The notes under the pieces: generated by a model
Seen by the model: the letters and a program-made list of their open reading frames with translations, nothing else
The model's database searches: none
Told to the model about the DNA's origin: nothing
DNA from: Margaritispora aquatica
Lineage: Eukaryota > Ascomycota > Leotiomycetes > Helotiales > Discinellaceae
Length of the DNA: 64,000 nt
Direction of reading: 5' to 3'
NCBI GenBank assembly: GCA_007644065.1
Contig: VJWN01000012.1
Span: forward strand, 981,758 to 1,045,757
Translations under genes and position numbers: made by a program
In this document: positions 3,102 through 35,589 of the stretch, in pieces
Layout: every line of letters begins with the position of its first letter
Numbering within the stretch: position 1 is the stretch's first letter

Positions 3102-4403
3102 ACAGCAAGTACTCATTCGTCATGGATTGGTGTTTTCCACTTGGTACCCTAGTTCGAAGGTACGGACAGATCCAAGTCTACTCCGTATTATCCAGTTTTC
3201 CCAGGGTTCCAAATCTTCCCATCTCGATATTTTCAGCCGTGTCGAACACATGGTGTCTCGAGAAAATTGTCTGGAATGTCTGGAATGTCTCAAATCCGGT
3301 ATTTTCCTCTCATTCCTCCCCCTGTTCAGCCACACACCACTCACTTACCACCTACCACTTCTCTCCCGTCCTGAAGTCTCGCCAGCGCATGCATCTCCGA
3401 CCCAACCCATTCCTTAGGTTTGATTGGTCACTCACCAAGATTGCTTTCAATTACGAGCTGGGGAAGGACCAGAAGAGCGGCACTAGCGCCTTTAGTTGCC
3501 GAGATCAAGTGGGTTCAGGGTCCTGTCATATGTCACTAGCCGGATCCGGTAAAGATCGACCATGAACTCGTGGCGCAAATGGGCGAGAATGACGTCTCGT
3601 ACCAGGGGGATCCGTGGCTGTGCGGTTATGATTTGGTTTTTATTGGATGATGCGTTTTTCTGGGGTTGGTGCCTTGATTTGATACTGTACAGTACCACGA
3701 GCACGAGTACGGTACCTCCTTCTCGTTCTTCTTTCGTTTGGGACATGACAACAGACGGGGTGTGATGAATGGAAGTTACCTATGTAGGTTGGGAAAGCAC
3801 AACTACCAAGAGAAAATGTGATATGCTCGCTCTCTAGACGACAAAAGCCCGGACTCGAGAGTTGAGAATGGAAGGGACGAAATGAAAAATGTAAAAAATG
3901 ACGGCAATGCGCAAGGGTCTCACTTCACCCTCTCACCCCCAAATGGCCTGCCGTGAGACACAAACTGCGTGTCACCTCATGTTTGGTGTTTACCACCTTT
4001 TCTTCTTCTTCTTTCTTCTTCTGCACAGGCACGAGACTTACCTTTATCCACTGGAACACGAATCATCATGAGAGAGAGAGTAAGAGAGAGTAAGACAACA
4101 CCTGATTCTCACCCATACATACCATCACACACAATCCACCACCATCGTGACTTCCCCTGCCTCCCCAGTTTTCGTAGAGTCTCATCGCTTCTCCAGTTTT
4201 ACGAGCACCGTGTCTGACAACACAGCCATACTTATGATACTCGGTACTTGTGTTCAGCGAATCAGCGTTGTAGGGTTTACGCGGGTACATGTATAGTTAT
4301 GGGTTGGTATAGGGACGTCCAGCTCAGTGTGCGGCGTTTTGTCTCGTCTTTATCATGGAGAATACGTAGGTAGGTAGGTATCAGGAAGATCGGTGAGCAG
4401 ATT

Positions 4404-15033: not shown

Positions 15034-15078
15034 CGTCGACACCTCCCCGTCCTTTCATCTTCTTTTTCTTTTCTCTTT

Positions 15079-15260
15079 AGCTCTCTTTGCCTATTGGCTT
15101 AGATCAAGTGTAGTATCTGTTCTTTTCAGTTTAATCTCTGAAAGATTCCTAAGGGAATCACATTGATTATACTTATTTTTGTTCCTCGGACTTCGGCCTC
15201 TGGGCTTGCCCATGTCGTTGTCCACTGTGTCACTGGTATTTCACTGCCTCCAGTCGATGC
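15079..15260 (+). ncRNA. U2 snRNA, copy 1 (uninterrupted)
   Basis: U2 is the spliceosomal RNA that base-pairs with the intron branch site. The sequence carries the U2 5' end AGCTCTCTTTGCC, stem-loop I (GCC-TATT-GGC), and TTAGATCAAGTGTAGTATCTG with the branch-site recognition element GTAGTA at 15110-15115. Stem IIa is TTTCAG/CTGAAA (15124-15129 with 15138-15143). Stem IIb is GATTCC-TAAG-GGAATC (15144-15159). The Sm site ATTTTTG is at 15175-15181, and stem-loop IV is CTGG-TATTTCACTGCCT-CCAG (15233-15253), the U2A'/U2B'' binding hairpin. Both ends are set by comparison with known U2 RNAs and may be off by a few bases. A TATA box lies upstream, as expected for polymerase II snRNA genes. Confidence 0.95.
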
Positions 15261-16169
15261 GAACTCTTTTTCATCGTTGGTTCTGCTAGTCAGAACTTCG
15301 AAGAAGAAAATGTATTGAAGTTGAAATATAATGTGTCTAATTAGAGAGACAACCAGCTGTTGAATATTATTCTGAGGGCAAGGGATTTGTGAGGAGAGGT
15401 CATGATCCGGGGTTTGTGGCGATTTCTAGGCACTATGTTTGAAGCTTAGATAGATTCGCAACGTGTATCTCATGTAGAGGGTTCACTAAATCAAGTCTTT
15501 CCTCTCCTTGTACAGGAGTGTTCTTAAGCTGCCGTTGGTTATGTATGATTCATTTCAATGCTGTCAGTAATTTCCAACAAATATACTTATGCAATTCTCA
15601 CGACCTCAAAGCTCTGGGATGATGTCGCACTTCCTAGGTACTCCAACCCCTTGCTAAACCTCATCACAACAACATTTTCGAGCGAACCCTGTGCTGTAAA
15701 ATGAAAAGGAGGCGTGTAGTAAAGCGAAAAGAGACACAGCAAAGAGGACTATTCATATCTACGATCAGAAAGTCTTTATGGCTGGCAGGTAGGTGCCTCT
15801 TCCTTAGCCATTCGAAGGGTAGGTATGTTTCGACTTTGAGTTGCGCAAGTTCTTCTGGATTCTGTGAGGCTCAGCCACTTGGTCTTAGATATTCCACTAC
15901 TTTGGCATCGCCAAAACCTTCAAAACTATACCAGAGTTTTGGATTGACACAGGACAGCACTGTGATCCGAGAGAAATGCGAGATGGCCGGTACAATAGAA
16001 AGATCATGTGATATTAGACCCGCCAAAAATCCCCACTAAAGCTAGCGACCTCGAAGTCTTGGCATACACACAAGAAATATTTTCACGCTTCAACGAACTT
16101 CCTTCAATCAACCATATCTCAATCGACCACGGCGCAGGATTATACTTCTTTGCGACCTCATTCATCAAA
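15261..16169. other. Intergenic between U2 copy 1 and the eL22 gene
   Basis: About 900 bp; no gene supported. The last part should contain the eL22 promoter and leader. Open frames (15701-16039, 16008-16196) run into the eL22 leader and have no family motif. Confidence 0.5.
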
Positions 16170-28796: not shown

Positions 28797-30446
28797 TCAA
28801 GGCCAAGCTCCAGGATCTATCTCCGTGCCTAAATCTCTATCCTCAAGGAACGTCCGACCCCTGAGCTGTTCAGGCAGATATTCCTGAACCACTTTCCCAT
28901 CTTTATAATTTGGATTATACTTGTACTGATCTCCATAGCCCAGCTCTTTCATCAATTTCGTCGGTGCATTTCTCAGATGAATTGGGATGGGCAGACCAGC
29001 AACACCAGGTTCTCGCAGTGCTGCATATGCATTGCTCAGTCCTCGATATGCCCTCGTGCTCTTGGGAGCTAGACATAGAGCCACGCAACAGTGTGCAAGA
29101 TTTATCCTGCACTCTGGCATGCCGATTGTCTGAGCTGCGGCATATGCTGCTGTTGCGAGAGGGAGCATGGTGTTATCTGCAAGTCCAACGTCTTCGGACG
29201 CAACTGCTACCATTCGTCTGGCGACGTAGAGGGGGTCTTCGCCTGACTGCAACATGCGAGCGAGATAGTAAAGTGCAGCATCTGGATCACTACCTCGTAT
29301 GCTCTTGTGGAAAGCGGAGATTGTGTCGTAATGCTGGTCACCGGCTCGGTCGTACACGAGAGTCTTTGTGAGTGCTGATTTGATCTCTTCCTTTGTCATG
29401 GTCGGTCGAGTCGAGAGCCCCATGGCTAATTCAAGTAGGTTGAGAGCTGTTCTTGCATCTCCATCTGAGAAGGAAGCTAAATACTTGAGCAGTTCCGAAT
29501 CCACAAGATCAGATGGTGTGTAGTTGTGTCCTTCCTTAGCGAGAGCTCGCTCTAAAATCTGAAGGATGTCTTCATCTGTTAATTTCTGCAGCGTGAAAGT
29601 CCTACACCTAGACAGAAGAGCATTCTGCACTTTGAAAGATGGATTCTCTGTCGTTGCTCCAATAAGGGTGATTTGTCCAGACTCGACAGGGCCTAGAAAT
29701 ACATCTTGCTGTGATTTTGAAAACCGATGTATTTCATCACAGAATATGATGGTCTTCCTTCCTGTCAAGCCTAGCTCGCCCTTCGCCTCTGCAAATATCT
29801 TCTTGCACTCTCCAACACCAGAGCTGGTGCTGTTGATCTCCACGAATCGACTTCCAACCATCGAGGCTATACACCGAGCAATGGTGGTTTTCCCCTGCCC
29901 AGCTCCTCCCCACAGTATCATCGATGGTACTCGGTCCTGCTCAATCAAGCTCCGCAGTACACCTTGTGGTCCAACCAATTCTTGACCGCAGACGTCGTCA
30001 AGTTTGGTAGGTCGCATTCGTTCTGCTAATGGTGCTGCCTTTTGAAAGGCATTTGTCTTTGGTTTCTTGACTACTGGTATATCTTCGACCCTGATTGCTG
30101 AATCTGACTCTTGCTTGACCGATTGAACATCTGCGATATCTTCGAAAGACCGCTTCCGACTTGGTATTGGGGTTGTGCCATTATTCTGTACTTTAGGTTG
30201 CAAATTTAGTGCTGGGCCTGGTTCCGTCTTTGGAGTTATATTTGAAGCTGCCTTTTTGGCAGCAGGTGTCTGGAAGAAACTCGATACAGATGGTTTTTGC
30301 GTCGAAGAGGGTTTCTGGGTGGATGAGCCATTCTGTTGAGTAAGTGGCGGGGTGCCATTGTCCAGATAATTCTCACATCCAGAATCAATATGTGGGTTAA
30401 TATCTCTTGATCTGACTTGTTTTCCACAGATAGGACAGTCTACCAT
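28797..30446 (-). CDS. MGS1: MGS1/WRNIP1 AAA+ ATPase (DNA replication maintenance)
   Basis: An intronless gene of 549 codons. The N-terminal UBZ4 zinc finger is CPICGKQV...HIDSGC (residues 4-24). After a disordered linker comes the AAA+ module: Walker A GGAGQGKT (about 178-185), Walker B FCDEIHRF, and sensor region ATTENPSF. The C-terminal MgsA-type tetramerisation domain follows (SIRGSDPDAALYYLARML, RRMVAVASEDVGLAD, NLAHCCVALCLAPKS). MGS1/WRNIP1 acts at stalled replication forks and binds ubiquitinated PCNA through the UBZ finger. The ATG at 30446 directly precedes VDCPICGK, and two ACGCGT boxes lie 82-115 bp upstream, in keeping with S-phase control. Confidence 0.96.
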   Translation of the reverse strand: MVDCPICGKQVRSRDINPHIDSGCENYLDNGTPPLTQQNGSSTQKPSSTQKPSVSSFFQTPAAKKAASNITPKTEPGPALNLQPKVQNNGTTPIPSRKRSFEDIADVQSVKQESDSAIRVEDIPVVKKPKTNAFQKAAPLAERMRPTKLDDVCGQELVGPQGVLRSLIEQDRVPSMILWGGAGQGKTTIARCIASMVGSRFVEINSTSSGVGECKKIFAEAKGELGLTGRKTIIFCDEIHRFSKSQQDVFLGPVESGQITLIGATTENPSFKVQNALLSRCRTFTLQKLTDEDILQILERALAKEGHNYTPSDLVDSELLKYLASFSDGDARTALNLLELAMGLSTRPTMTKEEIKSALTKTLVYDRAGDQHYDTISAFHKSIRGSDPDAALYYLARMLQSGEDPLYVARRMVAVASEDVGLADNTMLPLATAAYAAAQTIGMPECRINLAHCCVALCLAPKSTRAYRGLSNAYAALREPGVAGLPIPIHLRNAPTKLMKELGYGDQYKYNPNYKDGKVVQEYLPEQLRGRTFLEDRDLGTEIDPGAWP

Positions 30447-30527
30447 GGTGAAAGCAATGCAACAGCTGTTCGGGATATTTGGTGAAGTATCTCGTGTGCA
30501 AAATTGTAGTGGTATATTCCTGGTGTG

Positions 30528-30561
30528 ACGCGTCGTGCCATTGGAACTTTTAGAGACGCGT
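30528..30561. promoter_or_regulatory. Two MluI cell-cycle boxes (ACGCGT) upstream of MGS1
   Basis: ACGCGT at 30528-30533 and 30556-30561, both within 115 bp of the MGS1 start. In yeasts this hexamer is bound by MBF, which drives DNA-replication genes at G1/S. Confidence 0.6.
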
Positions 30562-30919
30562 TCCAGGCACCGCTACAGTGGCTCTTCCTCAATCAACAGG
30601 GGTCAATTTAGTGCCTTCGGCATTCAAGTCCTTCAAGGTTTCAACTTCCAGTGCTATCCGCTCAATGCTTAACTTGATATCTTATAAATTCTGGGTATTC
30701 TTGCGACACAGAGGTTGGAGAGAGCTTTCCTCACTCGACTTCTCAGTCGTTAGCACGAGGCGAAGAAATACTTATCTCATTGCTCTCAGCATTTAAATAC
30801 GAGAAGTGCCGGAATTGATATAAACTAACTGCACAGTGGCGTCAGCCCAGATACAGGCTTCTTTAAGGGTGTGCCGTATGTATCGAAATGTCAATTGACA
30901 ATGATACTAGATATCTGGG

Positions 30920-31761: not shown

Positions 31762-32747
31762 CGGATGGATTTCCTTGTCGTGTTAGTTTGAGAGACCAAA
31801 ATTAGGGGTGTGATAGTCTCAACTAGCATTTGTTTCCTAGTAATGATTGAAGCAAACAGGTTTTAAGTATACTTTAATGAGAATGGATTCCGCTAAATGT
31901 GTCAAAATCAAAGTACACTTGACTAGCTCTAGTTAAGATGTCAATTCTTTCTAGGGAAGTGAAGCAATGTACGAGCACAAAGCGTTGGGGGAAAACACCC
32001 CGACCATCATCTGAGCCTCAAGCATTATTACCTTACCCCCTAGCTATTGCATATATACTTAGGCAGTAGGCATGTTGAAGTGATCGACAAGGACTCTTGT
32101 CTACGTTTAGTTAACTAACTATTGTTTTTCCAGAACCTTCTTCACTTTTAAGATGGTTGCTCTTCATTTTTCGCAACATGCACCTCTCAATTCGCAATTA
32201 GCTGTCATGAAACCCCAAGATGCTCCAACATTACCTTACAAGTTACCTTCAAAAAATTTTGACTCGTGAGCAAACACTCTTTCGAAAATGTAGACCTTAT
32301 GTCGTCAAGTGTTTGTGGCCCAAAGCGTGCGGCGAGCTCGGGATACCACACTTGATCTAAGCCAATAGGCAACTGTGACGCTGTTAGCGAGAGAGAATAG
32401 TTAGGGGGTATGGTGAGTAACTAACAGAGAGCTGATTTTTGTAAAGTTGGGGGAAACGGTTGGTTAAATAGTTGAGAATTCGACGGTTGTCGCTAGTTGG
32501 AGGAGTACTTATCTCTGCTCTATATTCAAGCCAAGTGAACTGTCGTCTTGAGGTTGAGAAGATGTTTGGTGTTGAGCTCTCAATATAATAGAGGTAGGTA
32601 ATAGTCTTGCTTTGAATCTGCCTTACCTCCTTATCTGCCTGATTTCGCTATACTACAAAGCATGAAATCCCATTCATCCAGGCTGCCCAGTCCTAGGTAG
32701 GTAGTGATTCCGTCCTCTTACACCATCCCGTGACCTTACAGAGCAAA
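31762..32747. other. Intergenic, no gene seen
   Basis: About 1 kb of AT-rich DNA upstream of U2 copy 2, with scattered GTAGGTA-type short repeats. No open frame or RNA supported. Confidence 0.5.
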
Positions 32748-32846: not shown

Positions 32847-32892
32847 CCTCCTCTTCGTCCTCCTTCAAACCTTTCTTTTCCTTTCTCTCCTT

Positions 32893-33074
32893 AGCTCTCT
32901 TTGCCTATTGGCTTAGATCAAGTGTAGTATCTGTTCTTTTCAGTTTAATCTCTGAAAGATTCCCAAGGGAATCACATTGATTATTCCTATTTTTGTATTA
33001 CGGGAGAAGATCTCTGAGCTTGCTCATGTTTTCTTCCACTGTGACACTGGTATTTCACTGCCTCCAGTTGTCGC
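32893..33074 (+). ncRNA. U2 snRNA, copy 2 (uninterrupted)
   Basis: Nearly identical to copy 1 from the 5' end (AGCTCTCTTTGCC) through the Sm site. GTAGTA branch-site recognition element is at 32924-32929. Stem IIa is TTTCAG/CTGAAA (32938-32943 with 32952-32957). Stem IIb is GATTCC-CAAG-GGAATC (32958-32973), with a C for T change in the loop. The Sm site ATTTTTG is at 32989-32995, and the stem-loop IV sequence CTGG-TATTTCACTGCCT-CCAG at 33047-33067. The stem III region between the Sm site and stem-loop IV differs from copy 1, so this is not a very recent duplicate. Termini are approximate. Confidence 0.95.
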
Positions 33075-33114
33075 GAAGGTTCTTCCTTTCATTGCTTGAT
33101 CTGCTGGTCAGAAA

Positions 33115-34718: not shown

Positions 34719-34793
34719 ATCACATGATTCTCCTCCTCGAAAGCGAGCTAAGCCCACTAGCGCCGTTTCCTAAACCTCCCACATCTATATAAA
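34719..34793 (+). promoter_or_regulatory. U2 snRNA copy 3 promoter elements
   Basis: ATCACATGAT at 34719-34728 and CTAGCGCC at 34757-34764, both shared with copy 2 in the same order, then TATATAAA at 34786-34793. The TATA box lies 41 nt upstream of the proposed RNA start at 34827. If the RNA instead began at the uninterrupted core near 34875, the distance would be about 89 nt, unlike the other copies. This spacing supports the 8-nt first exon. Confidence 0.6.
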
Positions 34794-34834
34794 CTCCTCT
34801 TCGCCCCCTCCCTCCGAGAGAAAATCAGCTCTCT

Positions 34835-34884
34835 GTACGTCAACAATCCCGACCCCAAGAAGACATCCTCTAATAGCTTCGCAG
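34835..34884 (+). other. Putative spliceosomal intron 1 inside U2 copy 3 (50 nt)
   Basis: Begins GTACGT, ends CGCAG, with a CTAAT branch-like motif at 34870-34874 (branch A about 11 nt from the acceptor). Its removal joins AGCTCTCT to TTGCCTATTGG, exactly as in the uninterrupted copies. It lies in the U2 segment that pairs with the U6 3' region (helix II). Confidence 0.75.
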
Positions 34885-34917
34885 TTGCCTATTGGCTTAG
34901 ATCAAGTGTAGTATCTG

Positions 34918-34997
34918 GTATGTCCTCCTCCTTCTCCTTGTGCCTCCCCAACTTCAGCTTCCCTTGACAAATCTTGCTGACCTTGGTACCACCACAG
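34918..34997 (+). other. Putative spliceosomal intron 2 inside U2 copy 3 (80 nt)
   Basis: Begins GTATGT, ends CACAG, with TTGCTGAC at 34974-34981 (branch A at 34980, 17 nt before the end), matching the branch consensus of this genome's mRNA introns. It interrupts the RNA 3 nt after GTAGTA, between ATCTG and TTCT, which are contiguous in copies 1 and 2. The whole tract is absent from those copies. Confidence 0.88.
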
Positions 34998-35136
34998 TTC
35001 TATCTAGTTTAATCCCTAGATGATTCCTCCGGGAATCCTCATTGATTATACTGATTTTTGAAAATCGATCGCGGGCCGCCTGGCTTGCCAGTGTTCGTGA
35101 TCACTGTGGCGTTGGTATTTCACTGCTTCCTTCTGC

Positions 35137-35589
35137 TGCGATCCCGTGTGTTTTACTTTTCATTGCTATTGGCCTTGTGCTGGATGTGAAGAAGAGATTG
35201 TCGGTACTTCAATGGAGACTTGGGCTTGAGTCTTGGTTGGCTTTGCTACGAAATTGAAACTGAAATTGAAAGTGACTTACGTAGCTGGTTGGGAGTTAGA
35301 GTCTCTGTACTTTGCTGCAAGGCCTAGAAATGTGACGCCTAGGTATTTAGTATCTTTAAGGCTTTCATTATTGAATTGCTATGGGATAAATCATACTTCA
35401 GCAACTCAAAGTCAGCAGGGAGGGAAGAGCCTTCCCGAGGCGTACTTCTGCAAACCAAACCTCCATAGAGAATCTCAAGACGCAATCCGATATCTTGACC
35501 GACGAGTTGCTGAACCGGAAGAACAGGAGGTCTCAACGTTTTTGAGGCCAGAAATTCTTCTTCTTCCGTTTCAGCTTCAAAGACCATAG
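35137..35589. other. Intergenic downstream of U2 copy 3, with coding-like fragments
   Basis: About 450 bp. A plus-strand stretch near 35430-35550 reads SANQTSIENLKTQSDILTDE, continuing LLNRKNRR, before a stop. It may belong to the open frame at 35590-36066 through unseen introns, or be debris. Confidence 0.3.

Follow-up and report, generated by a model that had tools for sequence, protein, structure and literature searches.

A U2 snRNA gene with two probable spliceosomal introns, among other interrupted snRNA genes, in the ascomycete Margaritispora aquatica

Could a U2 snRNA gene of an ascomycete be interrupted by two ordinary introns and still supply a U2 RNA that the spliceosome can use? 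This question is raised by the third U2 gene of the window, i.e. the whole stretch of 64,000 nucleotides that was analysed. This gene, which we call U2f (locus L006), lies on the plus strand from position 34824 to about 35142, and two probable introns separate its three exons. Exon 1 (ATCAGCTCTCT, 34824..34834), the start of which was deduced from the paralogs, is followed by the 50-nt intron 1 (34835..34884), which splits the 5' arm of stem I and reads GTACGT...TCTAAT...CAG. Exon 2 (34885..34917) contains the U6-pairing and the branch-site-binding sequences and is identical in sequence to that of the continuous copy U2a. The 80-nt intron 2 (34918..34997), which reads GTATGT...GCTGAC...CAG, is located between GTAGTATCTG and TTCT, directly 5' of stem IIa, and exon 3 (34998..35142, with an approximate 3' end) carries stems IIa, IIb, III and IV and the Sm site ATTTTTG. 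The branch A is found 11 nt from the 3' end of intron 1 and 17 nt from that of intron 2.

With its introns left in, U2f matches the Rfam U2 model (RF00004) with 83.5 bits, the cut-off (gathering score) being 46, and the match extends as far as 35147. The two other U2 genes of the window that are recognised by RF00004, U2a (32891..33082) and U2c (15077..15268), both on the plus strand, reach 158.4 and 156.1 bits. The original prediction had placed insertions of 50 and 80 nt in the third U2 gene and had described the other two as continuous: its coordinates are exact, both insertions show the GT...CTRAY...AG arrangement, and U2a and U2c are continuous. Compared by eye with these copies, insertion 1 has a single possible placement, and insertion 2 has two that are one base apart, one of which is GT-AG. 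The joining of the exons gives an RNA that possesses the branch-site-binding GTAGTA, the Sm site and stems I to IV, with two U-U pairs in upper stem IV. For comparison, a simple spliced aligner inferred 12 introns of 47-126 nt in two tubulin genes of the genome; 11 of them contain CTRAY, with the branch A 9-23 nt from the end, and the remaining one (51 nt, GTATCC...AAG), which is devoid of branch motif, may be a misplacement by the aligner. The U2 insertions fit this inferred tubulin set.

The search of the genome (42.4 Mb, 49 contigs) with RF00004 gave seven matches, six of them above the cut-off (46 of 881 candidates scored); the copy numbers given here for this and the other RNA families are lower bounds, only the best candidates having been scored, and additional copies of these genes, with or without introns, may have escaped detection. 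Exact matches to the core GATCAAGTGTAGTATCTG number six in the genome and fall at the six above-cut-off loci, and three places with two mismatches were discarded as not U2-like by eye. Four of the six genes are continuous, namely L001, L002, L003 and the divergent L005. The latter (G000:C48:107623-107826, 97.6 bits) is altered in stem IIa and in its middle part.

Three U2 copies share exactly the site of intron 1. Besides U2f, the full-length gene L004 (C4:694913-695107, minus strand) has a 52-nt intron at this site (GTCAGT...GCTAAC...CAG), and the third copy is a truncated one on the minus strand of the window (32342..32436), found by blast of the neighbourhood, which is composed of exon 1 (32436-32426), a 53-nt intron 1 (32425-32373) and exon 2 (32372-32342). 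The upstream region of this truncated copy is U2a-like, its exon 2 runs to GTGTGGTATC inside the branch-site-binding region, and no U2 was recognised beyond that point. A continuous U2 gene begins about 0.5 kb away from it on the opposite strand. The alignment of the three introns reveals that GT..GT, CTAAY and CAG are kept and that the interior has drifted; indeed, the resemblance between the interiors of U2f and L004 was reached by 113 of 2000 shuffles and is suggestive only, so that the homology of intron 1 is deduced from the identical position and the third copy. Most simply, intron 1 would predate the split of the three copies. Intron 2 was seen in U2f only among the U2 copies, and it would have been either gained by U2f or lost by the others. 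The original prediction is supported for the introns of U2f; it had overlooked L004, the truncated copy and the interrupted U6 and U4 genes described below.

The seventh match, L007 (G000:C48:1609295-1609449), remains under the cut-off with 34.4 bits and consists of a U2 3' half, with the Sm site, stems III and IV and the 3' element, behind a foreign 5' part, which includes a separate TATA box and a stretch reading GTAAGT...GCTAAC. It could be either a chimeric gene or a pseudogene. The joining of this 3' half to the truncated 5' copy by trans-splicing was considered and dropped, since no GT donor is present at the end of the 5' half.

The presence of introns is not confined to U2. The genome search for U6 gave two matches, and the U6 core pattern hits exactly the same two; one place with two mismatches was rejected by eye as unrelated. 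The first U6 gene (L008, G000:C48:1672708-1672815) contains a 53-nt intron (GTAAGT...GCTGAC...TAG) after GGTC, and the second (L009, G000:C23:2147951-2148056) a 50-nt intron (GTAAGT...GCTAAC...TAG) after GGTCAATTTG. The two sites are 6 nt apart and the joined genes give identical RNAs of 102 nt. The covariance matches had taken part of each intron as the 5' stem, which illustrates that such searches can misplace interrupted snRNA genes. Because no continuous gene was found among the U6 matches of the genome, the removal of snRNA introns would be a necessity in this fungus, which should have to splice snRNA precursors if the assembly and the search are complete. The U4 search also gave two matches: L018 is continuous, and L017 (G000:C9:238124-238258) has a 59-nt intron (GTAAGC...GCTAAC...CAG) after ATCTTAGTGCATGG. 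On the other hand, the six U1 matches, all under the Rfam cut-off and all starting with ATACTTACCTTG, and the single U5 match look continuous by eye. The interrupted U2 gene most likely belongs to a wider pattern of snRNA introns in this genome. The two U3 snoRNA genes that were found (L041, L042) both seem, by reading, to be interrupted after ATGTCGATTAATAC; U3 introns are usual in Pezizomycotina, according to PMC5832005.

The flanks of U2f carry elements that are common to other snRNA genes. Upstream of exon 1, CTAGCGCC, for which the name promoter element was given in this analysis, is located at 34757..34764 on the plus strand, at a distance of 67 nt, and a TATA box (TATATA) at 34786..34791 on the same strand, at 38 nt; an exact TATA match is absent upstream of the interrupted paralog L004. 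The element CTAGCGCC is found within 160 nt upstream of four of the six U2, five of the six U1 and one of the two U4 genes, i.e. of 10 of the 14 U1, U2 and U4 genes found in the genome; the sixth U1 gene carries CTAGCGTC in its place, and within the same distance CTAGCGCC was not found at the U5 gene (n=1), the U3 genes (n=2) or the U6 genes (n=2). Two of its four occurrences in the window are away from U2 genes (3483 and 24814), and the one at 3483 was rejected as an snRNA promoter, no snRNA being visible behind it. Downstream of U2f, the 3' element TTTTCATTG ... GAAGAAG occupies 35157..35194 on the plus strand. The spacing from TTCATT to GAAGA is 29 nt in U2f, as it is in L001, L002, L004, L005 and L007; the exact TTCATT is absent from the 3' flank of L003.

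The joined U2f RNA shares 138 of 191 aligned positions with U2a, the lowest value among the five aligned copies. The base pairs were counted in five of the six full-length copies; L005, the middle part of which aligns poorly, was left out, as were L007 and the truncated copy. In these five copies, 93.3% of 225 cells are paired, and the pairing drops to 40-50% when the partners are slid by 1-3 columns. Changes on both sides affect 13 of the 45 pairs, with a shuffled mean of 4.9 and none of 500 shuffles as high, in a test where relatedness alone can exceed the shuffles without structure; for two of the 45 model pairs, none of the five copies shows pairing. Between U2a and U2f, 13 pairs are changed on both sides and yet stay paired, three are changed on one side, and two have become U-U in stem IV. 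No change affects the branch-site-binding region or the Sm site; there is a one-base difference in each of loops IIa and IV, and the two bases that separate the arms of stem IIb are different. The claim that exon joining restores the U2 architecture is accordingly borne out by an RNA of about 190 nt with 13 compensated pairs and two broken ones. In the lowest-energy fold of the joined U2f, stems I, IIa, IIb and III form and stem IV does not take its usual shape, unlike in the single-sequence fold of U2a. Since the stems other than stem I sit in exon 3, this pairing points to a constraint on the U2 RNA and not on splicing as such.

The explanation we propose, deduced from the anatomy of the gene, its paralogs, the conserved signals, the pairings and the flanking elements, is that U2f is very probably a real ascomycete U2 snRNA gene with two ordinary spliceosomal introns (GT-AG, CTRAY), the transcript of which would be spliced and used by the spliceosome. 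Transcription by RNA polymerase II from the snRNA-type promoter would yield a precursor of about 320 nt, from which spliceosomes built from the existing snRNAs would excise both introns. Stem I would thereby be restored, and the branch-site-binding sequence would be joined to stem IIa. The resulting RNA, of about 190 nt, would fold and acquire an Sm core, and its 3' end would be formed or trimmed near the shared 3' element. The unspliced RNA would hardly be workable: stem I is split by intron 1, and intron 2 stands between the branch-site-binding sequence and stem IIa. The presence of two mRNA-type introns in U2, as originally proposed, is supported by the splice signals, the compensatory changes and the intron 1 common to the paralogs, and also by the shared promoter and 3' elements and by the U6 genes, which give U6 only when their introns are removed.

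The divergence of U2f from the other copies, the two U-U pairs and the failure of stem IV to form in the lowest-energy fold would also be understandable if the introns were true ones and U2f a decaying or silent paralog giving no working U2. Several continuous copies exist and could make U2f dispensable, and the partial copies, i.e. the truncated one of the minus strand and L007, attest that U2 genes do decay in this genome. We nevertheless judge this reading unlikely: the pairs that are compensated outnumber by far the two that are broken, the Sm site and the branch-site-binding region have stayed the same, and the promoter and 3' elements have been kept. It is far less probable still that the two segments are ordinary insertions in a pseudogene which look like introns by chance. 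On both strands of the window, a GT start, an AG end and a CTRAY near the 3' end are combined in 44 of 127,900 segments of 50 nt and in 45 of 127,840 segments of 80 nt, so that the intron-like look of any given segment of either length arises at about 3-4 in 10,000; such segments do occur, but two separate sites of one gene both fit here, intron 1 is kept with conserved signals in three copies (which are related and do not represent independent trials), and the interrupted U6 and U4 genes share the same anatomy.

How might the introns have entered these genes? One origin, compatible with U2f being a spliced and working gene, is that introns already excised were reverse-spliced into U2 within the spliceosome, which we regard as possible rather than probable. 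It is proposed because both sites fall within or beside stretches that base-pair with U6 or with the branch site, the pairing partners of the snRNA regions being general knowledge: intron 1 interrupts stem I, close to the 5' end of U2, and intron 2 directly follows the branch-site-binding sequence. Furthermore, ACAGAG lies 13 and 7 nt downstream of the ends of the U6 introns, and the U4 intron is in the 5' part of U4. The U6 intron of the fission yeast Schizosaccharomyces pombe is itself thought to stem from reverse splicing, as stated in PMC10484740. On the other hand, no donor intron was found, the search of the genome with intron 2 and its flanks (34900-35010), which skips common words and can miss repeats, having matched only itself. 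In addition, the introns of U3, which is not spliceosomal, lie almost exclusively in the 5' half of the first stem-loop (PMC5832005); because U3 introns also lie 5', a general 5' bias would explain most of the intron sites as well.

Other sequence collections were also searched. The exact scan of viral_contigs gave a single locus for GATCAAGTGTAGTATCTG (L019) and no match for CAAGTGTAGTATCTGTTCT. This locus, which resembles ordinary coding DNA by eye, was rejected as a U2: no Rfam match was obtained over 11,952 bases at the gathering score, nor in the vicinity of the hit up to E 1. In genome_contigs, the scan returned 10 loci, six without Rfam match and four with a U2 match (L046, L048, L050 and L051, the last two on the same contig), which are probably eukaryotic contaminants. 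L046, which also matches U1, 5S and the histone stem-loop, is the only full-length U2 of the four and is continuous; L048 and L050 are without 5' end, the intron-1 site being outside, and L051 is without its 3' part. Neither collection led to a fungus. As to the relatives of this fungus, the best named match of a DNA-dependent ATPase open reading frame of the window (28797-30572, minus strand) is Hyaloscypha variabilis, with 84% identity over 93% of the query; within the best 120 of 8000 matches, five rank above it, with up to 90% identity, and the other high named ones are from Phlyctema, Cadophora and Rhynchosporium, which are likewise Helotiales.

If our explanation is true, the spliceosome would splice the precursors of its own RNAs, thereby forming a closed loop. 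The feedback on splicing that was originally suggested is weak for U2, where it would be diluted by three ordinary and one divergent continuous genes, and stronger for U6, where no continuous gene was found and the feedback would be direct. Could all these introns be parts of a single phenomenon? Tentatively, and with less confidence than we have in U2f itself, U2, U4 and U6, i.e. three of the five spliceosomal RNAs, may derive at least partly from intron-bearing genes, U6 wholly and one U2 from a doubly interrupted gene; in that case the spliceosome could not be supplied with its RNAs unless it catalysed their maturation itself. The introns, which this joint reading places in or close to the stretches that base-pair with U6, U2, U4 or the branch site, would be traces left by reverse splicing into functional snRNAs. 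The existence of paralogs with none, one and two introns makes intron gain by reverse splicing testable within one genome.

In the open literature, i.e. in titles and abstract starts outside subscription journals and preprints, we did not find U2 or U4 introns in an ascomycete, and passages of PMC5569088 and PMC10581693 make no mention of snRNA introns; this faintly suggests that a doubly interrupted U2 together with an interrupted U4 could be new for an ascomycete. As of 2017, frequent interruption by an intron was known for no small structured RNA other than U3 and U6, and four U3 genes had two introns each, according to PMC5832005. As described there, the fungal U3 snoRNA genes resemble the genes described here by their GT-AG boundaries, their RCTRAC branch, the location of the introns in the 5' part of a structured RNA and the coexistence of paralogs with and without introns. 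U3, unlike U2, is not a component of the spliceosome. The fungal U6 introns, as in Schizosaccharomyces pombe, are closer in this respect, being spliceosomal introns in a core spliceosomal RNA, and both U6 genes of this genome belong to this class; U6 is, however, a polymerase III transcript, whereas U2 and U4 are interrupted here too. Introns are reportedly inserted repeatedly into the U6 genes of fungi (Canzler et al. 2016). Fungal U6 genes often have multiple introns, as stated in PMC7827515, which cites the latter work. Since fungal U6 already has them, an snRNA gene with more than one intron is not in itself a novelty. Among the closest known systems is also U2 itself: an intron in the U2 snRNA gene of Rhodotorula hasegawae is said to have been described by Takahashi et al. 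in 1993, a single one that reportedly lies just downstream of the branch-site recognition sequence. The two cases are alike in the mRNA type of the intron and in the position of intron 2 of U2f, likewise after the branch-site-binding sequence; they differ in that Rhodotorula hasegawae is a basidiomycete yeast, whereas the present fungus is an ascomycete with two introns in one U2 gene and with paralogs that have none or one.
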